This document shows, piece after piece, positions 2,578-43,188 of a stretch of 64,000 bases of DNA. The stretch lies in contig NZ_FNYS01000005.1 in NCBI RefSeq assembly GCF_900109075.1, positions 62,001 to 126,000 on the forward strand. Reading direction: 5' to 3'. The notes beneath the pieces were generated by a model. It made no database searches, had not been told where the DNA came from, and worked only from the letters and a program-made list of their open reading frames with translations. The stretch's first letter is position 1. Each line of letters starts with the position of its first letter. A program made the translations under genes and the position numbers. The DNA is from Myroides marinus. Lineage in GTDB: Bacteria > Bacteroidota > Bacteroidia > Flavobacteriales > Flavobacteriaceae.

Positions 2578-2602
2578 ACAGTAATATATGGTTTTGAAAA
2601 AA

Positions 2603-2637
2603 GCAAGCAGGACTTGGGCAGAGCCCTAGTCGCTTGC
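2603..2637. other. Strong hairpin, candidate oriT-associated structure
   Basis: GCAAGC at 2603-2608 pairs with GCTTGC at 2632-2637. After a 2-base bulge, GACTTGGGC pairs with GCCCTAGTC around an AGA loop with one mismatch. The stem is GC-rich in very AT-rich surroundings. It lies 136 bp upstream of the mobilization genes, where origins of transfer often sit in mobilizable elements. A second small hairpin, GGGCT-ttc-AGCCC, is at 2687-2699. It could instead be an RNA leader. Confidence 0.45.
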
Positions 2638-2662
2638 CTTTTCACTGACGTTGCAAAGGGTT

Positions 2663-2739
2663 AGAGTATACTTAAGGTATACTCTTGGGCTTTCAGCCCT
2701 TATAAAGATGTGATTTGGGTATACTTAAGGGTATACTCT
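2663..2739. promoter_or_regulatory. Two operator-like palindromes upstream of bfmA
   Basis: At 2663-2685 the arms AGAGTATAC and GTATACTCT flank TTAAG, almost perfectly symmetrical. At 2718-2739 a near copy reads GGTATACTTAAGG followed by GTATACTCT. The two sites are 55 bp apart, and the second ends 33 bp before the bfmA start. This layout suits autoregulation by the small DNA-binding relaxosome protein, or accessory binding at a nearby oriT. Confidence 0.55.
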
Positions 2740-2772
2740 TTTTTAAGATTAATAAACTAAAAAAAGATAAGT

Positions 2773-3321
2773 ATGAAGCAATTAGACACAAGTAGCATTC
2801 GCTTTTCAAAACCAGTTAATGAAAAGCTTGAAAAGCTCGCTTTAGGATTTAAGCGAAGCAAGAAAGAGTTATTTACTCAGATGGTTGATTACTTCTATAG
2901 AAGTAAAAAAGATCCATCAGACTTTGGAGATGAAGTTTTAAAAAGGGAATTATCCTCTGGAATCAGTCGGATAATCTCTTTTATAAAACAACAAGAGAAA
3001 GACTTCTTATTGCCAAGCTATACTGATGTAGGACTTTTAAAAGTTGCTATGGCTCAAAGTAATGATAAGCTCACTAAGATTGATACTCACTTAACTAGAG
3101 AAAGTGAGGTAAATACTGCCCTATTAAAGAACACAAAAAGTATAATAGGTGGAATAAGAGTACTGATAAATCATCAAAGACAAAAAGATGAACTCAAAGA
3201 GCAGTTTAGCGAACTTCTAGAGTATTATATTCATTCACGTGAAGAAATGGGTTGGACAACAGCTAATGCAAAGAAAGAACAGCTCATAGAGCATGTAAGA
3301 CAATCTTTAAATAATATGTAG
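2773..3321 (+). CDS. bfmA: BfmA/BtgA family mobilization protein
   Basis: The 182-residue cytoplasmic protein starts MKQLDTSSIRFSKPVNEKLE. The pattern SSIRFSKPVNEKLEKLALGFKRSKKELFTQMVDYF in residues 6-40 is a ribbon-helix-helix-like DNA-binding N terminus, as in the BfmA/BtgA accessory mobilization proteins of Bacteroidota. The rest is helical and charged. In known systems this protein binds near oriT and works with the BfmB/BtgB relaxase-like partner, whose gene begins two bases downstream. Two palindromes lie just upstream and may be its binding sites. The family call rests on sequence character and the partner gene. Confidence 0.82.
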   Translation: MKQLDTSSIRFSKPVNEKLEKLALGFKRSKKELFTQMVDYFYRSKKDPSDFGDEVLKRELSSGISRIISFIKQQEKDFLLPSYTDVGLLKVAMAQSNDKLTKIDTHLTRESEVNTALLKNTKSIIGGIRVLINHQRQKDELKEQFSELLEYYIHSREEMGWTTANAKKEQLIEHVRQSLNNM

Positions 3322-3323
3322 CT

Positions 3324-4289
3324 ATGTTTATAAATATTACTAATTCTGAAACTGGAAGCAATAAAGGCAGTTCTGCAGGACTTGTTGAATACTTAGAGAA
3401 AGAAAACAAACTAAAGACTGATAACACAGAGAAAGAACTTTGGTATACAAATGACAGATACGATGTGTCACATCAAGAAGTAAGAGTTAAACTTGATAAC
3501 AACGTAGCTAAACTTTGTAAAACGGATGATAAGTTTTTCTTAGTAAACATAAGTCCAAGTGAGAAAGAAATTTTCTTTTTAAAAGAAAAGTATGGAAAGG
3601 AAATATTACAACAGAAATTAAAAGAATATGCTACTGCTGTTATGGATGCTTATGCACTTAATTTTAAAAAAGATAGTATTACAAGTAGTAAAGATCTTCT
3701 TTGGTTTGGAAAGCTAGAGTACTTTAGGTATTACTCTATCACGGATGAAAAAGTAAAAAATGGAGAGGTGAATATTGGTGATATTAAAGAAGGTGAACAA
3801 ATGCACTTACAGATTATAGTTAGTCGAAAAGATATTACCAATAAGATAAAGCTAAGTCCTAAGAATAATTCAAGAGGTAAAAACACAGAACACTCTGCTA
3901 AATTTGGTCAGTTTGACAATCTTGCTTTTAAAGAAAATAGCGAAAAACTTTTTGATGATATGTTTGATTATCAAAGAGGACTTAAAGAGAAACTTGTGTA
4001 TTCAATAACTATGGATAAAGGAAGTGTTGAAGAAAAAAAGGTATTGAACATCTTGGAGCAGATTGAAGATAAACTAAACGAATCGACTAAAGAAGAATAC
4101 TTTAAGCTTATAGAAAATATTTCATTGGACTTCTCATTAGATTTAGAAAACATTATTGAAGTATTTGACTCTAAAGGTTCTGGATTACTTACAAGTTTAT
4201 TAACTGCAGAAAATAACGAGTATAATGAGAATATAAAATTTTCTAAAAAGAAGAAATTGAGAAGAAATATAGGTTTAAACATTAATTAA
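3324..4289 (+). CDS. bfmB: BfmB/BtgB-type mobilization protein (DUF5712)
   Basis: The 321-residue protein opens with MFINITNSETGSNKGSSAGL, typical of the DUF5712/BtgB mobilization proteins that pair with BfmA in Bacteroidota mobilizable elements. A conserved-looking segment near residues 155-175 (EGEQMHLQIIVSRKD) has the hydrophobic-His-hydrophobic pattern of a relaxase core (MHLQIIVSR), consistent with a Mob/relaxase role. The C-terminal third is charged and helical. The gene follows bfmA with a 2-bp gap, so the two are cotranscribed. No coupling protein or integrase is visible nearby, so the element would need helper functions from a conjugative element. Confidence 0.82.
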   Translation: MFINITNSETGSNKGSSAGLVEYLEKENKLKTDNTEKELWYTNDRYDVSHQEVRVKLDNNVAKLCKTDDKFFLVNISPSEKEIFFLKEKYGKEILQQKLKEYATAVMDAYALNFKKDSITSSKDLLWFGKLEYFRYYSITDEKVKNGEVNIGDIKEGEQMHLQIIVSRKDITNKIKLSPKNNSRGKNTEHSAKFGQFDNLAFKENSEKLFDDMFDYQRGLKEKLVYSITMDKGSVEEKKVLNILEQIEDKLNESTKEEYFKLIENISLDFSLDLENIIEVFDSKGSGLLTSLLTAENNEYNENIKFSKKKKLRRNIGLNIN

Positions 4290-4546
4290 AATGTGTAAAA
4301 TAAATAAATTCCACAAAGAAGTTAATCTTTGAAAACTGTGTTTTTTCACAAAGTAAGATGTGTAACTATTTGAATTTTAATAAAATATAAAAGGTGTTTT
4401 AATCGTATAAAAAACAGAATAAAATAAGTTATCGAAAAGGTAACAACACGTTAAGTTGTTGTGAGGCACTCGAGATAATATTCAAGCTTTTAAAACGACT
4501 TGCCATTGCATATAATTAGAAGACTACTCAGAAGTCATTAATTTTG

Positions 4547-4783
4547 TAGACTCAAAATATTGAGGCGTTTACGGATTTCCGTAGTAGGGATTCATAAAAT
4601 TGCTTTATGTTTGAAAAGAAAAACAGTATTGTTTAATTATTTTACTATATATAATAGGTTGGTACGTTAAATACTTAATTGGAAAAACTAATCATATTAG
4701 TAACAAATTAATTAAATAAAGATATAGGTGTGTTTTCACAAACTTAAACTTTATATTGTTTCGTAAAAAACTCTGTTATGTGC
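4547..4783 (+). repeat. Leader repeat, copy A
   Basis: This stretch is a diverged direct copy of 6101-6333. Both begin TAGACT, reach AAATATTGAG, carry the TACGGATTTCCGTA palindrome and TATGTTTG, and end in TTCGTAAAAAAC followed by GTTA. Each copy sits in front of a different accessory gene. The conserved length of about 235 bp points to a duplicated promoter and leader module. Confidence 0.7.
4570..4613 (+). promoter_or_regulatory. Palindrome-type promoter, copy 1
   Basis: TACGGA-TT-TCCGTA at 4570-4583 is followed, after exactly 22 nt, by TATGTTTG at 4606-4613, a perfect TAnnTTTG Bacteroidota -7 element. The palindrome occupies the place of the -33 element. The same arrangement and spacing recur at 6124-6167 and 42584-42627. 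An activator binding the palindrome is the simplest reading. Confidence 0.65.
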
Positions 4784-4842
4784 AATTTTATTAATAATCG
4801 TAACTAATATATTAATGGGCTATATTCAAAAATTAAGAATAA

Positions 4843-5178
4843 AATATTCGATTTGCAGATGAGTTTTCTTTTAAAGAGCTTTTTAAGTATGCTTTTAAAG
4901 CTGAAGTAAAAAGTAGTTCTAAGACTAATGCAAGGCGTTATGATTTGGTTTTTAACGCGCTAAGAGGTAAAAAAACACTTTTCCCTTTTGGAGGAATTAA
5001 GCCAATAGAGGAGGATTTTGATGAAGATGATTTGGAGGGGGGAATTGTACTGGAGGGAATGGCAAACCGCATTTTCAAATGGTGTACTGATGATTGGTAT
5101 GATAAAGCAGATGGAAATGCTCTTGTAGGTCTTGCAATCCCCGAAAAGGTTAAGAAATTGACTGATTATCCAAAGTGA
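4843..5178 (+). pseudogene. C-terminal coding fragment, unrecognised
   Basis: An open frame of about 110 codons runs from the stop at 4840-4842 to the TGA at 5176-5178. There is no ATG or GTG start; the only conventional option is a TTG at 4945 giving 77 residues. The text before that TTG (NIRFADEFSFKELFKYAFKAE) still looks like real protein, which suggests a longer gene has lost its beginning. Visible features are an acidic DFDEDDLEGG patch and a WCTDDWYDKADG segment. I do not recognise the family. The MORN lipoprotein gene follows 22 bp later. A true short gene using a rare start (ATT at 4846) remains possible. Confidence 0.45.
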
Positions 5179-5200
5179 TTTTTAATTAAATAATTATATA

Positions 5201-5986
5201 ATGAGAAAGTATATTTTAATGTTATTAGTATGTTTTTCTTTTTTCAGTTGTAAAGAAAAAGAAGTTGATTTTTCAAAAATTCAAGAACGAAATGGAGTTT
5301 ATTATGAAATTAATAGTGAAGTGGGGTTTAGTGGAATAGCTACGTCATATTATGGGAATGGACAATTAAAAGTGGTAGGGACTTTTAAAGATGGAAAAAC
5401 ACATGGCTTAAGTAAAGAATATTATGAGAATGGACAAGTACAAGGGGAATTCAATTTTAAAGATGGAAAAAAAGATGGTTTGCTTAAAGAATATTATGAG
5501 AGTGGACAAGTAAAATTGGAGGGAAATTATAAGAATGGAAAAGAAGATGGTTTGGCCAAATTTTATTATGAGAATGGACAAGTACAAGGGAAAATAAACT
5601 TCAAAGATGGAAAAGAAGATGGTTTAGCTAAATCTTATTATAAGAATGGACAAGTAGATGAGGAAATAAACTTCAAAGATGGGAAAAGAGATGGTTTGGT
5701 TAAAGAATATTATGAAAGCGGACAAGTTCAAGCTGAAACAAACTTTAAAAATGGAAAAAAAGATGGTTTGGTTAAAGAATATTATGAGAGTGGACAAGTA
5801 AAATTGGAGGGAAATTATAAGGATGGAGAAAAAGATGATTTATTTAAAGCTTATTATGAGAATGGACAATTACAATTGGAAATGAATTTCAGAGATGGAA
5901 AAGAAGATGGTTTGCTTAAAGAATATTATGAGGATGGACAAGTAAAATTGGAAATTATTTTAAAAGATGGGAAAATCATGTTCTAA
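5201..5986 (+). CDS. MORN-repeat (YwqK-like) lipoprotein
   Basis: The 261-residue protein has a lipoprotein signal ending FSFFSC, so Cys17 would be lipidated and the protein anchored in the envelope. From about residue 45 to the end there are nine 23-residue repeats of the type YYxNGQVxxExNFKDGKxDGLxK. These are MORN_2 repeats, as in proteins annotated as YwqK-family antitoxins. By family knowledge some YwqK-like proteins are immunity partners of secreted toxins, but no toxin gene is adjacent. The repeats are also close at DNA level, so copy number could change by recombination. It follows the fragment at 4843-5178 by 22 bp and shares its promoter. Confidence 0.8.
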   Translation: MRKYILMLLVCFSFFSCKEKEVDFSKIQERNGVYYEINSEVGFSGIATSYYGNGQLKVVGTFKDGKTHGLSKEYYENGQVQGEFNFKDGKKDGLLKEYYESGQVKLEGNYKNGKEDGLAKFYYENGQVQGKINFKDGKEDGLAKSYYKNGQVDEEINFKDGKRDGLVKEYYESGQVQAETNFKNGKKDGLVKEYYESGQVKLEGNYKDGEKDDLFKAYYENGQLQLEMNFRDGKEDGLLKEYYEDGQVKLEIILKDGKIMF

Positions 5987-6100
5987 TTATTATGCATTGA
6001 TTTAATTAATTTTGCACAGGAATCACCTGTTCAGTTTAGATCGGAATATCCACTTAATGGTGAATCAATGAGGAAGACAAACTTTTAGAGTTTAAAATAA

Positions 6101-6333
6101 TAGACTTAAAATATTGAGTGGTTTACGGATTTCCGTAATAGGATTAACAAAAAGTTTTTTATGTTTGAAGAGGAAAATTAATTTTGCTTTACTATCTGTG
6201 ATTAAAATAGTTTATTAAGTATATAGTTTACTGAAAACAAATTATATTAGTGGAGAATTAAACTAAATACATATATATGTATGTAATTTTGCGAAACTAC
6301 ACCGTGTTTTGCTTCGTAAAAAACAATGTTAGC
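6101..6333 (+). repeat. Leader repeat, copy B
   Basis: Diverged direct copy of 4547-4783 with the same landmark order: TAGACT, AAATATTGAG, TACGG palindrome, TATGTTTG, TTCGTAAAAAAC. It ends at GTTAGC (6328-6333), 73 bp before the 114-residue gene. Near its end TTTTGCGAA and TTCGTAAAA form a small imperfect hairpin. Confidence 0.7.
6124..6167 (+). promoter_or_regulatory. Palindrome-type promoter, copy 2
   Basis: TACGGATTTCCGTA at 6124-6137, a 22-nt spacer, then TATGTTTG at 6160-6167. Identical architecture to copy 1. The predicted transcript would start near 6174 and leave a leader of about 230 nt before the gene at 6407. Confidence 0.65.
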
Positions 6334-6406
6334 AAAAATTATTAACTAAATCTGATGAAATAGAATTTTAAAAAAATCTTCAATATATTTAACTAAAAAA
6401 TGAATT

Positions 6407-6751
6407 ATGGCAATAACTAAAGGTGATACTACATTAAGGTCTGTTAGTGGAATAAGTGCAATAGAAGAACAAAGAATTTTAGATTTTTTACAAGGTGCAG
6501 TTTATTGTTGGTGTAAGAATAGAAAAGATGAATGGTTTTCTTTAAGAGAACTTATGGGTGGAGATAATTTTTATTGGGAAGAAACACCACTTATGCCATT
6601 ATATGAGAAACATCGAATTGCAGGATCTAGTGATCCCGTAAAATCTGCTGGAAAAGACTGTGGATGGATGTTGAAAAAAGTTATAATTAATGATAGTAGA
6701 AATTTCGAAACTGATAAGTTTGAAATGACTAGAAAATATAAATGGATATAA
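6407..6751 (+). CDS. Unrecognised 114-residue protein (cassette-like gene)
   Basis: A compact soluble protein starting MAITKGDTTLRSVSG, with no signal peptide or membrane segment. Visible features are an N-terminal helix (EEQRILDFLQGAVYCWC), a WFSLRELMGGDNFYWEETPL segment, and a GKDCGWMLKKVI helix. It is rich in Trp and aromatic residues, as in small stand-alone binding or wHTH-like proteins, but I cannot name the family. The ATG at 6407 is the only start that gives the full frame. The gene sits between GTTAGC at 6328 and GCTAAC at 6760, nine bases after its stop, like a gene cassette. Confidence 0.65.
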   Translation: MAITKGDTTLRSVSGISAIEEQRILDFLQGAVYCWCKNRKDEWFSLRELMGGDNFYWEETPLMPLYEKHRIAGSSDPVKSAGKDCGWMLKKVIINDSRNFETDKFEMTRKYKWI

Positions 6752-6759
6752 TAACTTCC

Positions 6760-6953
6760 GCTAACATCAGCTTGCTGGAAATGCGGTTTTTTTGTTTGGA
6801 TTGAACACTATTGTTTTCTAATCCCCAAAAGCTGTCTATATTCGTATTTTTTGTAAGTTTACAAATAGTGGAACAGCTTTAATTTCGTTTGGGTCTGAAT
6901 TGAACATTCACTCAATTAAAGTCCGCACTTCGCCAAGCTAATCGCAGTTAGGC
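6760..6953. repeat. attC-like imperfect palindrome between cassettes
   Basis: The left end GCTAACATCAGCTTGCTGG pairs imperfectly with the right end CCAAGCTAATCGCAGTTAGGC. Inside, GAAATGCGG pairs with CCGCACTTC, CCCCAAAAGCTGT with ACAGCTTT...TTTGGG, and TTGTAA with TTACAA at the tip. The whole 194 bp can fold back. The right edge GTTAGGC fits the integron core GTTRRRY. It resembles an attC recombination site, although it is longer than most and no integron integrase is in the window. Confidence 0.5.
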
Positions 6954-6972
6954 GTAATTTAATAAAAACTAT

Positions 6973-9183
6973 ATGTCAAAGAAATATCATCTAGAAATCC
7001 CCAAAGAAAATATATCAAAAAAAGAAATAAATAAAACAGGCTTTGGAGAAACAATTCCACGATTTAGTTATTCTGAGCATGGAATTATTTTACGTACTAA
7101 TAAAGAACAATTTAAAGAAAATGAATTTTTAAAGAAAGATTTAAGTGTTCTAAGTAATTTCTTTCTACAGTTAACAACGCTTGACAATATCAATATTAAA
7201 TTACATGTTCCTAAAATTGAAAATTTAGGTTTTGAACTTGTATCATTAAATTACGATAATAAATCAATTGCTAATTTTAAAATCGACGATGAAAAGTTCC
7301 ATGAATTCGAAGCAAAACTAGAAGAGTATATTTCTAGTCCTGAGAATAAGTACAAAACTTATTTCTCAGCAATTGAAAGTATTAGAGCAATACCTAATGA
7401 AACAAAAATTTCTAAAGAAATTAATATCAATTCAGAAGACAGATACGATATCCTTATCAATTTTTTTGATGGCATTAAGAATGATGAAATTAATTCTTTA
7501 GAAAGACTAATAAGAAATGAATTTGCCCAACACAATTTTGAGTATAATTTTTCAAATATAGCAAATCGAATAGTTACTATTAAAACTCAGTTAAATGGCT
7601 TAGAAATTAGTGCTATTTTAAATGAGTTTAATTCAATAAAAGAAATTACATTAAATCAAAATTATTTCATAACAAATTCTGTAAAAGGAGAATCTATCAC
7701 GGCCGATATAACATTTGAAGATGTCTTATCAAGTTCAGCAATTTGTATTTTTGATTCTGGAATTACAAATCAAGGTAATATTATACCTAACTATGTGCGA
7801 AATCGTATAAATTCATATTTACCGTCTGGTTCAACTTCACCTCAATACACACATGGTACATTTGTCGCAAGTAGATGTATTTACGGTGATGATATTGAGT
7901 TTCAAATAACAACTAAAATTTTAAAACCATATTGCTATGTTATAGATGTACCTGTTTTTGGTATTGATAGCTCTGGTAACATAACTGGATTGAATGATTT
8001 TGAGTTAGCCATTGCAATAACAGAAGTAGTAGAATCACTTTATAATGATGTAAAAGTTTACAATTTATCACTTGGCAATCCAAAATCTTTAGAGGATAAT
8101 GAACGGTCGCATTTAGGAAAAACTCTTGATTTTTTATCTAAGGAATTTGATGTTTTATTCGTAATATCTTCGGGTAATATAAATTCAAGCTTAGGAGATT
8201 ACCCTGATAACCACTTTTCAAATCCTAATGCAAGAATTGGTTCACCTGCGGAATCATTATTAGGACTTACGGTTGGATCAATTGCAAAATATGACGATAA
8301 TGGTTCACTGACTAAACGAAATTTAATTTCTCCTTTTTCAAAAATTGGCCCTGGTACAGATGGTGGCTTGAAACCAGAATTAGTTTCACATGGCGGAAAT
8401 CTAATGTCTCCGTATACTTCTTTTCATCGTATTTCATCATGTGGGCTTTATCATGATGGCATGAGTTTATCTTATGATAATGGTACAAGTTTTTCATCAC
8501 CAATAATTTCCAGATATGCACAAATGCTTTATGATTACTATCCATTTGCAAAAACAAACTTGGTTAAGGCTTTATTAATCCACTTCGCAGAAAGAAGAGA
8601 AATTTTTGAGAATTTTGATTTCGACTTTAAATTTACAGGATTTGGTGAACCCTTAATACAAAATGCTTTATTTGCAAATAACACAGCAACTTATCTTTAT
8701 CAAGGTGAATTAGATATGGAAAATTATGATTATGTAAAATTTAATATTCCAAATTCATTTTCTGACTCCAATTCAGAAAGTAAATTAAAACTAAAAATTA
8801 CAATTGTATATAATCCTGAAGTTAATTTAAATAACGATAGTGAATATTCTAAGACAAGACTTTCTGTAAAACTTGTAAAAAACACTACTTCTGGACTAAG
8901 AGAAATAAGTCTATCTAATTCAAATATATACACTAAGCAATGGAGCCCTATTTTACAATTTGAAAAATCTTTTACTAGAAACTTTGATGCAGGTGAATGG
9001 GAAGTAGCTCTTAGGCTATATACAAGAAGTATTAATGATTCTAATTTCAAACAAGATTATGCTATTATTATTGAAGTTATTGACGAAACAGGTAAAATAA
9101 ATGTGTATGATGAAATAAAAAATGATGAGAATCTAAATTATAATTCATATGAAAATGAAGTAATAAATATAAACTACGCCTAA
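6973..9183 (+). CDS. S8 family subtilisin-like serine protease
   Basis: The protein has 736 residues. The catalytic triad is recognisable: Asp261 in IFDSGITNQ, His294 in YTHGTFVAS and Ser506 in NGTSFSSPI; the oxyanion Asn region is near VISSGNIN. There is no clear signal peptide, so it probably acts in the cytoplasm. Residues 1-250 form an unassigned N-terminal region and about 580-736 a C-terminal beta-rich region. In other bacteria such large cytoplasmic S8 proteases are often paired with an AAA ATPase in defence or stress modules; here no ATPase is adjacent. The gene starts 20 bp after GTTAGGC and its stop codon lies inside GCCTAAC (9178-9184), the exact complement, so it looks like cassette cargo. 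Confidence 0.85.
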   Translation: MSKKYHLEIPKENISKKEINKTGFGETIPRFSYSEHGIILRTNKEQFKENEFLKKDLSVLSNFFLQLTTLDNINIKLHVPKIENLGFELVSLNYDNKSIANFKIDDEKFHEFEAKLEEYISSPENKYKTYFSAIESIRAIPNETKISKEININSEDRYDILINFFDGIKNDEINSLERLIRNEFAQHNFEYNFSNIANRIVTIKTQLNGLEISAILNEFNSIKEITLNQNYFITNSVKGESITADITFEDVLSSSAICIFDSGITNQGNIIPNYVRNRINSYLPSGSTSPQYTHGTFVASRCIYGDDIEFQITTKILKPYCYVIDVPVFGIDSSGNITGLNDFELAIAITEVVESLYNDVKVYNLSLGNPKSLEDNERSHLGKTLDFLSKEFDVLFVISSGNINSSLGDYPDNHFSNPNARIGSPAESLLGLTVGSIAKYDDNGSLTKRNLISPFSKIGPGTDGGLKPELVSHGGNLMSPYTSFHRISSCGLYHDGMSLSYDNGTSFSSPIISRYAQMLYDYYPFAKTNLVKALLIHFAERREIFENFDFDFKFTGFGEPLIQNALFANNTATYLYQGELDMENYDYVKFNIPNSFSDSNSESKLKLKITIVYNPEVNLNNDSEYSKTRLSVKLVKNTTSGLREISLSNSNIYTKQWSPILQFEKSFTRNFDAGEWEVALRLYTRSINDSNFKQDYAIIIEVIDETGKINVYDEIKNDENLNYNSYENEVININYA

Positions 9184-9278
9184 CACTGGATTGATAAAAT
9201 ACACATTTTGGAAATCAATTAAAAAACTTTCTTTTTCCTCAAAATCAATTATTAAATAGTATATTTGATTCTGAATCA

Positions 9279-9545
9279 AATGATTCCAATCATAGTTTAA
9301 AACTTTCGTAATAAGGTGCTCACATCAATTTAAAAAAGTGAACATCCCTATTTATAAAGCATACGGAGTAAAAGAGGCTAACCCTCTTTCTCCGCGAAGA
9401 AAACCGATAACGAGAGTTATCGGTTTTTTTATTTCTAAAAAGTAACTGAAAGCTCGCTTTCAATGTTACTCTGGAAATAAAAAAACCGAAATACCAAATG
9501 CAATGAAGTATTGACTTTCTTTGTGTCAGTTAACTCCTTATGGAG
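9279..9545. repeat. Element-edge repeat block, copy 1
   Basis: This block is about 265 bp and is diverged but colinear with 36459-36722. Shared landmarks include GATTCCAA, GTGAACATCCCTATTTATAA, CCCTCTT(T/C)CTCCGCGAA, AAACCGATAA...TTATCGGTTT, a following hairpin, and TTTCTTTGTGTCA. The word at 9382-9398 matches the 3' end of tRNA-Ser with one mismatch, suggesting an attachment site. The following hairpin (ATTTC...GAAAT here, TATGCTC...GAGCATA in the other copy) keeps pairing while its bases differ. Confidence 0.65.
9401..9430 (+). terminator. Rho-independent terminator
   Basis: AAACCGATAA and TTATCGGTTT arms with a CGAGAG loop, followed by a T run. It directly follows the tRNA-Ser 3'-end-like word, as a displaced tRNA terminator would. 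The same stem recurs at 36585-36614 and 39764-39787. Confidence 0.7.
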
Positions 9546-19891: not shown

Positions 19892-21085
19892 TTACTTTAA
19901 TAAATCTGTTCTACTCTTAATATTTAAAACCTCATATATAATCTTTAGGTGATATTTGACTGTATTTTCTGATACAAACAAATCATTAGCTATTTCTTTA
20001 TTTGTCTTTCCTTGTCTTACTAAAATAACTATTTCTTTTTGTCGATCAGTTAATAAATTCTCCTTTTCTACTCTTGTCACTTCTTCTTTACTAATAAGAG
20101 ATTCGTAGTCTTGTCTAAGCCTCTCATTCTCCTTTGTGATACTTTTCTGTTTGACAATATTCCTTCTATACTTAACAAAATAAATCCCTGTAACAATAAG
20201 AACAAACCCTAAAAATACTTGTAAGACTTTCTCGATATATCTTTTCCTTTTTAATGAAGCATCTTCTTCTAGTAATTGCTTTTCTAAAGTATTTAAAGAA
20301 CTACTTAAATTAACAGTATCAAACCTAGTAGCTAACACTAATACTAATTGGCTTGTTTCTAAACTTTTTCTTACCTCTCCTATTTGCTTATAATAAATTG
20401 CCATAAAACGATGCAATTGTATTAGTTCACTATTCCATTGGAACTGCTCTGCATAAGTCACTCCATTTTGATAACTATCTAGAACTTGATTGTGTTTACC
20501 TAAAAAAGCATAAGCTCTTAATAACTCTTTATAAACTACTGGTAAATACTGTGGATAATCTTTTTTAAGTATATCTATAGATTCCAAGAAACGACTCACA
20601 GCCTCTTGATAAACTTGCTTACCTTCTAAAGCTTCTATTCCTTTTAAAAATAGATATAAACCTAAATCACTTGCCTCTAATTGAGTTTGGTCAATCTTTA
20701 ATAAATTTAATTCGTAGATAGCTTGTTTATACTCAAGTTTTTCACAGTAAGTAACTGCTTTTTCAAGTCCATACTTTCTTGTAATTTTATCTTTCTCCGT
20801 ACTTTTTAAACCAAACAGAAAAGCTTCCTCTAGATTATCTAATGCTTCACTATAAATAGCTAACCTCTTAAATAGTTGATATCTCAAATAATAAGCATTG
20901 CTCTTATCTATATTTTCACTATTCTTATCAGAGATAATCCTATGCAACCTAACAATAGAGCTTTTATAGTCCAACGCTAAATTGTTTTGTTCTATTTCCT
21001 TAGCTAACTCCTTGTAATCAATAGTCTGACTAAAAACAGTTATACTAACAAAAAAGAACATCATAAACCAGATAATGTTTTTCAT
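19892..21085 (-). CDS. Membrane-anchored TPR regulator with LuxR-type HTH (copy 1)
   Basis: The protein has 397 residues: signal peptide (MKNIIWFMMFFFVSITVFSQ), a periplasmic TPR-like helical region to about residue 280, one membrane helix (VLQVFLGFVLIVTGIYFV), a short coiled coil, and a C-terminal LuxR/GerE HTH with LTDRQKEIVILVRQGKTNKE and SENTVKYHL. This is a one-component regulator type common in Flavobacteriia, where the exported TPR part would sense something outside the inner membrane. Its gene lies 2 bp after a paralogous regulator. Both point away from the CsgG-like operon, which they may control. Confidence 0.85.
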   Translation of the reverse strand: MKNIIWFMMFFFVSITVFSQTIDYKELAKEIEQNNLALDYKSSIVRLHRIISDKNSENIDKSNAYYLRYQLFKRLAIYSEALDNLEEAFLFGLKSTEKDKITRKYGLEKAVTYCEKLEYKQAIYELNLLKIDQTQLEASDLGLYLFLKGIEALEGKQVYQEAVSRFLESIDILKKDYPQYLPVVYKELLRAYAFLGKHNQVLDSYQNGVTYAEQFQWNSELIQLHRFMAIYYKQIGEVRKSLETSQLVLVLATRFDTVNLSSSLNTLEKQLLEEDASLKRKRYIEKVLQVFLGFVLIVTGIYFVKYRRNIVKQKSITKENERLRQDYESLISKEEVTRVEKENLLTDRQKEIVILVRQGKTNKEIANDLFVSENTVKYHLKIIYEVLNIKSRTDLLK

Positions 21086-21087
21086 AA

Positions 21088-22302
21088 TTATAGATCCTCT
21101 CTACTATTGACGTTTAATACTTTATAAATGTTTTTTAAATGGTATTTAACCGTATTCTCAGAAATATATAACTTCTCACCTATCTCCTTATTTGTTTTTC
21201 CTTGCTTGACTAATTCAACAATCTCTAATTGACGCTCAGTTAATTGTAACAGTTCACTGCTATATTGTTGAATATTAGGCTCAGATATAAAAGACATAAT
21301 ATTATTCCTTAACTGCTCATTTTCTAATCTTAGACACTCTTTTCTCTCTTTGGATTTTAGAATATATCTATAGAGTAAGAAGAAAATTATAATAACTATT
21401 ATACAAATAACAATCATCACAACTACAGACACTAAATGCTCCTTTTTCTCTTGATCAATACGCTGATTATGTAACTTTGTCTCTAATACATTTAGGCGAC
21501 CAATCGTGGTTCTCTCATCATATTCCTTAGATAATAAATTACATATCTCTTGTGTTATCACAGCATTTTCATAATCTTTTATTTGATTATAAAAGTAAGC
21601 CAAGTCATAATACATATTCAGAATATAGATATCCATATTATACTTCTTTGCATAATAAAGCCCTTGATCAAAACTTTTCAACGCTTTATCATACTGATTC
21701 ATTTGTCTATATATATCTATTTTCTTCCTATACATTAACGGAAGATCTACAGGCTTTTCTTTTTCGAGTATTTCAATAGCATTATCCAAATATTCTATTG
21801 CTTTTTCAAAGTTCTCTTCCTTTGATTCAACAACTGCTAACACAGCTAAATAAAAAGCATGAGTATTAGGAGATATATGCTTTAAATCTTCTGATTTAAT
21901 CTCTTCTAATATAGTATTAACTTCAGTAAACTTTAATTGATCAAAAGCTATAAAGAGCTTCTCTAACTTAACTTTTGAAATAATTACTTCTCTATAAACA
22001 TCACTTTTAAGTCCTTCTTTAAGTGCTAAGTTTAAGTTAAGTTCCGCTTTATCATAGCTAAACAACCTCTTATAAGTAATGTATTTAAAAAAATAAGCTT
22101 GATACTTATCGTAGGCAGTAGCTTGTTTACTGCTAATAATTTCTTCTAATAATATAATAGTGTCATCATACTTGCCTACATTATTAAAAGAAGTAACCTT
22201 CTGAGATATTTCTTCAAAATTATAAGATTGAGAAAAACCTTTTCCTACAGATAGAAAAAGAAGAAGAAAAACAATTACTCTAAAAAACACTTTAGTCGGC
22301 AT
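21088..22302 (-). CDS. Membrane-anchored TPR regulator with LuxR-type HTH (copy 2)
   Basis: The protein has 404 residues from MPTKVFFRVIVFLLLFLSVG, a signal peptide ending GFSQ. A TPR-like region, a membrane helix (VVVMIVICIIVIIIFFLLY), a coiled coil and a LuxR/GerE HTH (LTERQLEIVELVKQGKTNKE, SENTVKYHLKNIY) follow. It is a paralogue of the next gene, with a 2-bp gap, so the pair is cotranscribed. The frame extends upstream to 22368, but those residues would precede the signal peptide, so I use the ATG at 22302. A 14-bp GC-rich palindrome lies between it and the divergent operon. Confidence 0.85.
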   Translation of the reverse strand: MPTKVFFRVIVFLLLFLSVGKGFSQSYNFEEISQKVTSFNNVGKYDDTIILLEEIISSKQATAYDKYQAYFFKYITYKRLFSYDKAELNLNLALKEGLKSDVYREVIISKVKLEKLFIAFDQLKFTEVNTILEEIKSEDLKHISPNTHAFYLAVLAVVESKEENFEKAIEYLDNAIEILEKEKPVDLPLMYRKKIDIYRQMNQYDKALKSFDQGLYYAKKYNMDIYILNMYYDLAYFYNQIKDYENAVITQEICNLLSKEYDERTTIGRLNVLETKLHNQRIDQEKKEHLVSVVVMIVICIIVIIIFFLLYRYILKSKERKECLRLENEQLRNNIMSFISEPNIQQYSSELLQLTERQLEIVELVKQGKTNKEIGEKLYISENTVKYHLKNIYKVLNVNSREDL

Positions 22303-22684
22303 GACCATAAAATTAATTCGGGCAAAAATATCCAATTGCAAATTAAAAAAACAATAATCAATCAACAAAAAATCACATTCATTGACTATTTAACCTACAA
22401 CTAAAACTAAATACAGGTCAAAAAGAGAATAAATAAATTATTTATATCCGCAATTCGTAATTAAACCACTAAACAAGATTTTAAATAGTTCAACTACAAA
22501 ACCCAAAGAAAACCTAATAAAATACTGAAAATCAACAACAAAACAAACAAACTACCCGCGGGTAGCCAGCTTCTAAAATAGGCCTAACAAAGAACTACCC
22601 CCTTAACTACCTACCTAAAAATTTGTTTTGCTACAGCTGTTAACGAGTTTTGCGAACAGTAAATCATTATTAAAACAAATCAAT
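22303..22684. promoter_or_regulatory. Divergent control region with GC-rich palindrome
   Basis: This intergenic region holds CTACCCGCGGGTAG at 22552-22565, a perfect 14-bp palindrome in very AT-rich DNA, and direct ACTACC words at 22594-22599 and 22606-22611 followed by TACC. The sites lie about 75-130 bp before the CsgG-like gene. The LuxR-type regulators encoded divergently are obvious candidate binders. No TAnnTTTG -7 is clear here. Confidence 0.55.
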
Positions 22685-33261: not shown

Positions 33262-33291
33262 TTGCAAACCCCAGTATTTGCAGTATATTTG
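33262..33291 (+). promoter_or_regulatory. Promoter of tRNA-Ser
   Basis: TTG at 33262-33264 and TATATTTG at 33284-33291 are separated by exactly 19 nt, the Bacteroidota consensus. The tRNA begins 32 bp downstream. Confidence 0.75.
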
Positions 33292-33322
33292 CACTCGCAA
33301 TACGGAAGTAAAGCAGACCAAA

Positions 33323-33407
33323 GGAGGAATGGCAGAGTGGTCGATTGCGGCAGTCTTGAAAACTGTTGACTGTAACAGGTCCGGGGGTTCGAATCCCTCT
33401 TCCTCCG
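33323..33407 (+). tRNA. tRNA-Ser (TGA anticodon)
   Basis: The 85-nt cloverleaf has acceptor GGAGGAA pairing with TTCCTCC, a D-arm with GCAGAGTGG, an anticodon arm GCAGT-CTTGAAA-ACTGT (anticodon TGA), a long class II variable arm (TGACTGTAACAGGTCC region) and a T-loop GGTTCGAATCC. CCA is not encoded. Its last bases (CCCTCTTCCTCCG) form the left attachment site of the integrative element. Confidence 0.95.
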
Positions 33408-33411
33408 CGAA
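33395..33411. mobile_element. attL-like 17-bp repeat within tRNA-Ser
   Basis: CCCTCTTCCTCCGCGAA is repeated perfectly at 36566-36582. The two copies flank an integrase gene, as expected when a tyrosine integrase inserts into a tRNA 3' end and restores it. Confidence 0.8.
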
Positions 33412-35533: not shown

Positions 35534-35620
35534 TTACTTACTTGAGCAGAAAGAAGCCATAGATAATGCTTTATTACTTCTTGTATTCTCGTAATTAATA
35601 CTCTTATTTCTTTTACCCAT
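35534..35620 (-). pseudogene. Possible mobilization-gene stub
   Basis: A 28-codon frame starts MGKRNKSINYENTRSNKA and stops early. Just upstream on the minus strand is CTCCCGAAGGTCGCAAA followed by the ATG. Basic small openings of this kind begin some mobC-type genes, but the rest is lost. This is a weak call based on context. Confidence 0.3.
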
Positions 35621-35705
35621 TTTGCGACCTTCGGGAGAAAAACGAGCGGTCTTTGATACTGGAAAATTTTCAATTTGTAAGGACAAAGACACATCTCGAT
35701 GATTC

Positions 35706-36133
35706 TCACGTCAATTTATCGCGGCTAATACTCAGTAAATAATCATTGACATCCTTGTAATCTTTATATCTAACTCTTGCATCTTTTGTAATTAATGGAA
35801 ATGCTGCAATTAACTTCTCAGAGGTTTAATTGCTGTAACCTCATAATATTTCTCTCCTATATTAGCCTGTGTAATATAAAGTTACTAGTAAAGAGAAAAA
35901 CAATTGTTTGCTAAAATCTTTAGAACTTTTTTGAATCACAAACCAGGGGTATTTTCCTCTCTAAAAGGAGAGTGATACCAGGCTTGTTTATCATTGATTT
36001 TAGTTGGTTTTATATCTAGGCTATCTAAAATAGAAATAATCAATATATTTTTTTCTTCTTGAATATTCATAAGTCGGGTTATATGATTGTATATTGTTGA
36101 TTTACAACTGTTAAGATGATATCTATATGTCAT
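35706..36133 (-). pseudogene. Broken CHC2-type primase gene of the mobile element
   Basis: The first 65 codons give ILDSLDIKPTKINDKQAWYHSPFREENTPGL, close to the start of CHC2 zinc-finger primases of Bacteroidota mobile elements (YxSPFRxExTPSF), then a stop at 35936-35938. After about 120 degraded bases, a second piece in another frame reads FPLITKDARVRYKDYKDVNDYLL and ends at 35706, resembling the C terminus of the same family. The centre of the gene is missing, so it is inactive. Confidence 0.6.
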
Positions 36134-42583: not shown

Positions 42584-42627
42584 TACGGTTTTCCGTACAC
42601 TGATTATGAGAAAATCACCTATGTTTG
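42584..42627 (+). promoter_or_regulatory. Palindrome-type promoter, copy 3
   Basis: TACGG-TTTT-CCGTA at 42584-42597, then a 22-nt spacer, then TATGTTTG at 42620-42627. The spacing equals that of the two copies 36-38 kb away in the accessory region. Here the leader is short: the gene begins 52 bp after the -7. Confidence 0.65.
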
Positions 42628-42679
42628 AGTTATTACAACTACAATCAAATTACTTAATAATAACTTAAAAACTATAACT

Positions 42680-42910
42680 ATGAAGTATAAAGTAGTACCA
42701 TTCGTTGCCTCTATTGATTCTAAAAATGGAACATCTGATCATGTTGCGCAACAGCTTGAAATTTTAATTAATAAATATGCCTCAGAAGGTTGGTCATATA
42801 TCAGATTAGAAAGCGTTACAACCTATGTGGGAGCAGATGATGGTTGTTTTGGATTTGGAGCTAAACCTGGTTATACAACAACAAGACAAATGGCTGTTTT
42901 TTCAAAGTAA
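42680..42910 (+). CDS. DUF4177-like small protein
   Basis: The protein has 76 residues. KYKVVPFVASID, then QQLEILINKYASEGWSYIRLESVTT, then RQMAVFSK matches the DUF4177 pattern of a strand, a helix with EGW, and strands with VFxK. These are small alpha/beta proteins of unknown role. The glycine-rich VGADDGCFGFGAKPG insert is unusual. It overlaps the YidD-like gene by one base. Confidence 0.72.
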   Translation: MKYKVVPFVASIDSKNGTSDHVAQQLEILINKYASEGWSYIRLESVTTYVGADDGCFGFGAKPGYTTTRQMAVFSK

Positions 42911-43188
42911 TGAAATATATATTGCTATTTATAATCAAATCATATTGGCTATTAATTCCTCCTAAAAATAGGAGGAAATGTATTTTTAAAAAAAGTTGTT
43001 CTCAAGCAGTTTATGAAGATACAACAACCAATGGATTTATAGCAGGTTTTAAGACTTTACTATTCCGTTTTAAATCCTGTAATAATCAATATGATATAAT
43101 AACAGATTATACAACAAATAAAAAGAAACTGCTATTAAAAAATGGAGTTATTCTACCTGAGAATGAAATAGCGAAGAGATTACTTTAA
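42910..43188 (+). CDS. YidD-like protein
   Basis: The protein has 92 residues. The core YWLLIPPKNRRKCIFKKSCSQ with VYEDTTTNGFIAGFKTLLFR and a following Cys matches YidD (C-x-F-x(2)-S/T-CS-x-Y). YidD assists membrane protein insertion through YidC and lies next to rnpA/yidC in most genomes. This copy is remote from those genes and lacks some typical residues, so it is a diverged paralogue. It is translationally coupled to the DUF4177-like gene (TAATG). Confidence 0.7.
   Translation: MKYILLFIIKSYWLLIPPKNRRKCIFKKSCSQAVYEDTTTNGFIAGFKTLLFRFKSCNNQYDIITDYTTNKKKLLLKNGVILPENEIAKRLL

Follow-up and report, generated by a model that had tools for sequence, protein, structure and literature searches.

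The 64,000-nucleotide stretch of the Myroides marinus genome analysed here (contig NZ_FNYS01000005.1 of assembly GCF_900109075.1, positions 62,001 to 126,000 of the forward strand; from here on, the window) carries a recurrent element, the palindrome TACGG-N4-CCGTA followed after exactly 22 nucleotides (nt) by the -7 box TAnnTTTG, that we predict to define a class of promoters. They are likely switched on by a single response regulator (RR) of predicted NarL/RcsB type, whose gene follows that of a TPR-containing histidine kinase (HK), a reading to which we give a probability of roughly 0.8. Three such sites had been pointed out in the window by the initial annotation, and all were recovered where it had placed them, with a gap of exactly 22 nt and the same -7 box, TATGTTTG, in each. 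Read from the sequence, and for site 1 also from exact matches genome-wide, they are as follows.

4570..4583, + strand: site 1 palindrome, TACGGATTTCCGTA, a predicted response-regulator site
4606..4613, + strand: site 1 -7 element, TATGTTTG, N22 after the palindrome; predicted start ~4617-4618 (start offset from the Flavobacterium promoters given in PMC6847099)
6124..6137, + strand: site 2 palindrome, TACGGATTTCCGTA
6160..6167, + strand: site 2 -7 element, TATGTTTG; predicted start ~6171-6172
42584..42597, + strand: site 3 palindrome, TACGGTTTTCCGTA
42620..42627, + strand: site 3 -7 element, TATGTTTG; predicted start ~42631-42632

Palindrome matches with at most one mismatch number four in the window (three of them exact) against a mean of 0.23 in shuffled sequence, and none of 100 shuffles reached four. 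TAnnTTTG by itself is not enriched (91 in the window, 93.7 expected), so that the signal is the palindrome together with its spacing. Throughout the genome (4.16 Mb, 54 contigs) there are six TACGG-N4-CCGTA palindromes, and five of them have a TAnnTTTG at exactly N22, with N18 to N26 permitted; the sixth, apparently within a coding frame (judged by eye), has no -7 at N22 and was set aside for that reason. A reversed-pattern control gave no match, so the chance level that the initial annotation had proposed as a check was exceeded genome-wide. The notion of a coincidence plus the duplication of one leader can be given almost no weight: sites 1 and 2 do belong to a duplicated leader of 86 nt, 78% identical, but its motif positions are identical in 22/22 cases and the remaining positions in 45/64, site 3 and two sites on other contigs keep the spacing, and the 118 N22 matches across genomes and the viral spacing controls (both below) speak against it as well. 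A role of the palindrome as a hairpin in the transcript was ruled out, since it lies upstream of the predicted start. A sigma-70 style promoter scan found 33 candidates against a shuffle mean of 29.9 and was not used.

The search was extended to 352 genomes, made up of 60 relatives (M. marinus included) and 296 genomes of the phylum, with 4 genomes and 17 matches common to both sets, looking for the exact palindrome and TAnnTTTG with the gap left free between 7 and 37 nt. It gave 71 matches in the relatives and 88 in the phylum set, 142 of them distinct, and their spacing is strongly concentrated: N22 in 118, N21 in 6, N23 in 4, and only 14 at the other 28 spacings together. These 14 are part of the 142 but do not make a genome motif-positive (G034, G169 and G229 had only such matches), which leaves 128 sites at N21-23 in 46/352 genomes, with 1 to 8 exact sites per positive genome. 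The reversed pattern was matched twice in the 60 genomes and 29 times in the 296, i.e., an isolated match can be due to chance, while the pile-up at one spacing cannot. Taxonomically, the N21-23 sites are found in the genus and family of M. marinus, in a second family of its order and in two families of its class; two matches farther out in the phylum have a gap of 13. The motif class is thus real and wider than the first three sites implied. Neither this palindrome nor the RR described below had a recognisable description in the literature searched, which mostly excluded subscription journals.

Several genomes have the motif within the 3' end of an HK gene, with an RR gene directly after it and a second site behind the RR gene. 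A profile built from six of these RRs (221 amino acids in the six members, 220-226 overall) was applied to both genome sets and separated the orthologues, at 210-371 bits, from the next best RR at 119 bits. Motif (N21-23) and RR were both present in 46 genomes, the RR alone in 4, the motif alone in none and neither in 302 (Fisher 2e-53, a value that is too small because the genomes are related). The fairer figure comes from within the genus in the 60-genome set, where the corresponding numbers are 20, 2, 0 and 15 (Fisher 1.5e-8). All four genomes with only the RR (G020, G022, G079 and G160) have degenerate N22 sites at the RR locus, the poorest being those of G022 (3 mismatches upstream, 2+2 downstream).

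The same kind of comparison largely disposes of the activator that the initial annotation had considered, the TPR-LuxR regulators of the window (19892-22368). They form a tandem, both with a GerE domain and the second also with TPRs, and LuxR-type activators can sit near -42. However, relatives of the second protein (E<=1e-20; the only query, with only 29 first-look candidates scored in many genomes) were found in just G018, G022 and G023 of the 59 other genomes, and G023 is alone among the 21 other motif-positive ones. Besides, there is no palindrome at <=1 mismatch at the TPR-LuxR genes. Since this regulator is not present wherever the motif is, we have rejected it as the activator, and it is very unlikely that it binds the palindrome; the NarL-type RR coupled to a TPR-kinase fits instead.

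The RR loci also bear the motif themselves. An upstream N22 site (<=3 palindrome mismatches, intact -7) was found just before the RR gene in 48/53 loci, and the downstream site is exact in 33/53 and has <=2 mismatches in all in 45/53. These sites are the best match within 190 nt (upstream) or 370 nt (downstream), a way of counting that makes the upstream figure weak without the codon test given next; moreover, tandem RR genes sometimes share one site and many of the 53 loci were fetched because of the motif, although the orthologue search ignored it. The HK-internal site overlaps a conserved kinase motif, usually V/T/A-E-N-R-I followed by G and I-T-F, so that protein conservation alone could fix the spacing. 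Codon choice, however, is unusual there. The Arg codon is CGT in 34 and CGC in 5 cases (39/39), compared with 113/514 for the two together elsewhere in the same genes, and the codon three positions ahead of it has G as its last base in 37/39 although the amino acid varies (Val, Ala, Thr, Met); with Met left out, this is 34/36 compared with 63/612 elsewhere in the same genes. Three of the 53 loci had been left out beforehand, and 11 of the remaining 50 were not counted as their kinase motif was not recognised by the pattern (L114 among them). Because of this codon choice, the HK-internal DNA itself looks to be under constraint beyond the conservation of the protein, with p-values that are too small owing to kinship.

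The RR is predicted to be of the NarL/RcsB type. The receiver domain PF00072 was detected in the 6/6 RRs scanned (three above the cut-off and three below), below cut-off as well in the M. marinus protein, and D60 (M. marinus RR numbering), the putative phospho-acceptor Asp of the family, is invariant in the 53 sequences. The structural model of the M. marinus RR, made from an alignment of these 53 sequences (mean predicted local distance difference test 92.4, predicted template modelling score 0.74), has a receiver and a four-helix helix-turn-helix (HTH) domain with helices at 160-170, 175-184, 192-205 and 211-220, and its best full-length solved matches are the NarL-class RRs spr1814, RcsB, VraR, LiaR and DesR. 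The GerE model matched none of the six scanned RRs, nor that of M. marinus, and the C-terminus of one of the six matches PF19355 (DUF5932). In M. marinus the RR gene is G000:C18:232099-232770, and its own HK (L111:8764-10503) is directly 5' of it. This HK has TPRs, an HATPase match below cut-off and, judged by eye, a lipoprotein-like N-terminus and a membrane segment. Gene order and family suggest that the two would be cognate partners and that the kinase would phosphorylate the RR.

If the G of TTTG is placed at -5, as in the Flavobacterium promoters of PMC6847099 (-7 element from -12 to -5, start 4 or 5 nt further on), the palindrome extends from -48 to -35 with its centre at -41.5. The logo of the host sites reads TT-TACGG-N4-CCGTA-A, with G preferred at -32 and no clear -33 element. 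A G at -10 or -9 of the -7 box was seen in 54/118 host N22 sites compared with 14/97 viral sites (random expectation ~28%, for a background G of 0.15), while the F. johnsoniae promoter set given in PMC6847099 has virtually no G at these positions. For this reason the host -7 boxes would seem to be weak and activator-dependent. Of the special promoter class proposed by the initial annotation, therefore, the fixed spacing and the palindrome in place of the -33 element stand, with a hint of activator dependence, and the TPR-LuxR regulator as its activator does not.

The co-occurrence and position data would equally fit any regulator of these promoters, including an RR that acted as a repressor on the palindrome and kept the promoters shut until a signal released it. 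We consider such a repressor improbable. The site is at -48 to -35, upstream of the -7 box, at a single fixed spacing and where the -33 element would be, and the G at -10 or -9 of 54/118 host sites is disfavoured in ordinary promoters; a repressor would need neither the fixed spacing nor a weak promoter. With the RR as an activator, the kinase would sense an envelope or periplasmic signal and phosphorylate the RR, a dimer of which would bind the 14-base-pair (bp) palindrome centred at -41.5. Once bound, it would contact sigma or RNA polymerase as a class II activator and thereby offset the missing -33 element and the weak -7. The outcome would be a higher expression of its own gene, of the gene behind it and of a few scattered accessory genes, part of them anti-phage, and prophages would place genes under the same switch.

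Viral contigs are rich in the exact N22 pattern, with 109 stretches against 8 at N17 and 6 at N27. Among the 97 distinct viral sites read, the picked start codon is exactly 4 nt after TTTG in 14, which suggests leaderless messages and fits a transcription start there. A few viral contigs code, behind a site, for proteins of 63-74 amino acids that correspond to the HTH domain of the RR alone, with 34-48% identity to RR C-termini (among the alignments listed). A separate search for these solo HTH proteins gave 18 viral loci, with an exact N22 site directly 5' in 4, a poorer site in 8 (one of them with <=2 mismatches) and none in 6; when there was a site, the start was 4 nt after the -7 in 11/12. 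These proteins appear to provide a second link between the HTH domain and the site, through four exact cases, which are few. Both the 109 viral stretches and the solo HTH genes that follow exact sites, their ATG 4 nt downstream of the -7, would be expected if mobile elements were the primary users, with phage stand-alone HTH activators owning the promoter class and host sites being captured phage promoters. Yet a solo HTH is recognisable in only 5/50 motif-bearing viral records, there is none in the M. marinus genome, and 0/46 motif-positive genomes lack the RR, so that this origin also seems improbable. That most viral sites are served by a phage-encoded HTH is likewise unsupported at 5/50 records; for most of them the host RR, or some unseen factor, would be needed. 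A phage origin was also rejected: tblastn with the M. marinus RR at E 1e-5 gave nothing in the phage collection. By eye, the sites of viral loci L234, L267, L285, L289 and L334 are placed before what seems to be one family of proteins of ~66-90 amino acids.

Several observations weigh against activation by this RR, besides the kinship of the genomes, the chance matches of the reversed control as regards single sites, and the duplicated leader, which limits the independence of sites 1 and 2. At the RR locus of M. marinus itself both sites are degenerate: the upstream one, inside the HK gene, reads TGTGGAAAACCGTA-N22-TACCTTTG, with 2 palindrome mismatches, and the downstream one, before a small lipoprotein-like gene, TGAGGTTTTCCGTA-N22-TACTTTAG, with 2+1 mismatches, which means that the strongest sites of this genome are away from the RR gene. 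Other loci depart from the pattern as well, with no upstream site at L082:1501-2163, no downstream site at L089 and L096, and only a poor upstream site at L114, whose Arg codon there is neither CGT nor CGC. In one of the two genome sets, scoring was confined to the ten top first-look candidates of each genome, which may have let an RR escape. Co-occurrence and adjacency could also stem from a linked but different regulator, and the preference for activation over repression draws on the position of the site and the weak -7. As to the viral evidence, the four exact solo-HTH sites are on contigs also recovered by the motif search, and the five records with a recognisable solo HTH were all known beforehand and included.

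A frame of at least 45 amino acids starts within 400 nt of 126/128 host sites. For each site a single gene was chosen by a score of length and distance within these 400 nt, so some picks are second genes (e.g., nuclease genes ~320 nt on), and the 126 genes were reduced to 117 by leaving out the RR genes at eight sites and a gene that had been chosen twice. They vary between genomes and include EEP nucleases (6), HSDR_N proteins (5), Dtd (3), lipoproteins and many orphans. Eight of the 117 had strong defence-type PADLOC matches (20 of the 117 were scanned singly, of which 9 gave none at 1e-10 and 3 a weak one): a type IIG enzyme, DrmD, SduA, a Dam-type methylase, a type I R subunit, a PD-T4-6-type kinase, LmuA and a piece of a type III methylase. 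Restriction, Shedu, DISARM and Lamassu genes are represented behind the sites; one RmuC-type match in the tally was left out of the defence count. The control, 117 length-matched first-of-operon genes, gave two strong models, each of desulfurase type and together accounting for one or two proteins, along with a match to a nicking endonuclease (1.3e-30). In all, 160 PADLOC families were hit in the picked genes and 15 in the controls, with no strong match for most picked genes where inspected. The regulon would be accessory and in part anti-phage, the defence theme being tentative because the excess over the control is modest. Two loci from different genomes (L026 and L038) have, by eye, much the same palindrome leader but different genes behind it, one of them for Shedu and the other for a Ser/Thr kinase, which may represent the reuse of a leader with different cargo. 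A bolder proposal, which we regard as doubtful, is that one envelope-sensing two-component system is the on-switch of a mix-and-match anti-phage arsenal in Flavobacteriaceae and relatives, in which any defence gene newly acquired behind a palindrome-N22 promoter would be wired to this system and phages would answer with genes under the same switch and with a bare DNA-binding domain as a mini-activator or decoy.

The genes that follow the sites of the window are these.

4861..5178, + strand: reading frame of 105 codons, the first one of appreciable length downstream of site 1, which lacks an initial ATG and matches nothing in Pfam; perhaps a remnant
5201..5986, + strand: MORN_2-repeat lipoprotein-like protein (Pfam PF07661, E 8.1e-52), possibly co-transcribed from site 1
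6407..6751, + strand: orphan protein of 114 amino acids, from the nearest gene downstream of site 2, without a match in Pfam or PADLOC
6973..9183, + strand: subtilase resembling IetS, of an anti-phage protease family, and the second gene downstream of site 2 (PADLOC IetS E 1.2e-92; Peptidase_S8 E 1.5e-26)
42680..42910, + strand: DUF4177-like protein of 76 amino acids behind site 3 (weak Pfam match, below cut-off)
42910..43188, + strand: YidD-like open reading frame (ORF), overlapping the 3' end of the DUF4177-like gene

Relatives of the DUF4177-like protein are found directly after the RR gene, behind such sites, in G053 (exact site) and G033 (one mismatch). A simple scan detected no terminators in 4300-9400, a stretch that takes in site 2 and the IetS-like gene, and there is no recognisable IetA ATPase partner of the latter among the scanned neighbours; the 114-amino-acid orphan precedes it instead. 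The stretch between these two genes (6751-6973) ends in GTTAGGCG, which may resemble the end of an integron attC. The MORN_2 gene has a repeat period of 72 nt across 5260-5983, and 2/3 of its distant plasmid records are annotated as YwqK family antitoxin. Outside the window, the C45 site of M. marinus has a zinc-ribbon lipoprotein-like gene downstream. The C14 site (G000:C14:104934-104977, L112) has no sizeable ORF but a strong hairpin and a T run ~250 nt downstream, which makes it a possible small-RNA promoter.

The stretch with sites 1 and 2 is likely a variable island, as blastn against four relatives with full flanks (L011-L014) left it all but unmatched, with only 71 nt (6262-6331) in L012. 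In the same comparison, a DUF5712 (mobilisation-like) region within 2586-6331 was 83% alike in L014. For the gene at 723-2459, near the sites, the five named relatives are four Myroides and one Flavobacteriaceae bin. A plasmid origin of 4538-6800 was discarded: the distant plasmid search gave 3 records with 17-24% query cover, from position 877 on, that is, the MORN-repeat gene. Elsewhere in the window, the short stretches 33275-33408 and 35613-35730, which flank an integrase gene, are 86-96% alike in several Myroides-type loci. The cassette-like nature ascribed earlier to two of the driven genes was not established.

Compared with known systems, the RR would share with RcsB and other NarL-FixJ regulators the full-length fold, a receiver plus a LuxR-type four-helix HTH. 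The 14-bp palindromic site also resembles the RcsB box and has the size covered by an RcsB dimer. What differs here is the sequence of the site, the lack of a GerE match, the TPR-containing kinase partner and the distribution of the RR, which in the genomes searched covers one family, a second one in the order and two in the class. Class II activator-dependent promoters, with the activator near -41.5, also have one fixed distance and a replaced -33 element (if the G of TTTG is at -5, as in PMC6847099), but these would be built on the Bacteroidota -7 TAnnTTTG, and their activation is predicted. The -7 box and the 4-5 nt to the start are those of the Flavobacterium sigma-A promoters (TAHHTTTG; PMC9723704, PMC6847099), for which motifs SM1-3 have been described in F. 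psychrophilum (PMC9723704), whereas the G at -10 or -9 is common here (54/118) and the palindrome is not among the motifs noted from these two sources. Two-component genes linked to restriction-modification have been described as HEF_HK / Response_reg_2 pairs beside restriction systems (PMC8011034); those given there have the domains PF19191/PF19192 and are linked by neighbourhood, while the ones described here have other domains and are linked by a shared promoter-like site.

Few regulons are known in this phylum, and the proposed regulator, its binding site and the promoter geometry would join accessory genes that are otherwise unconnected, with palindrome-N22-TAnnTTTG plus the RR providing a ready sequence test for finding members. 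The regulatory site would be embedded in a kinase gene and kept there by codon choice, and a DNA-binding domain appears to be common to the host RR and to free-standing viral proteins. If the defence part is true, many different anti-phage systems would have a shared inducer.

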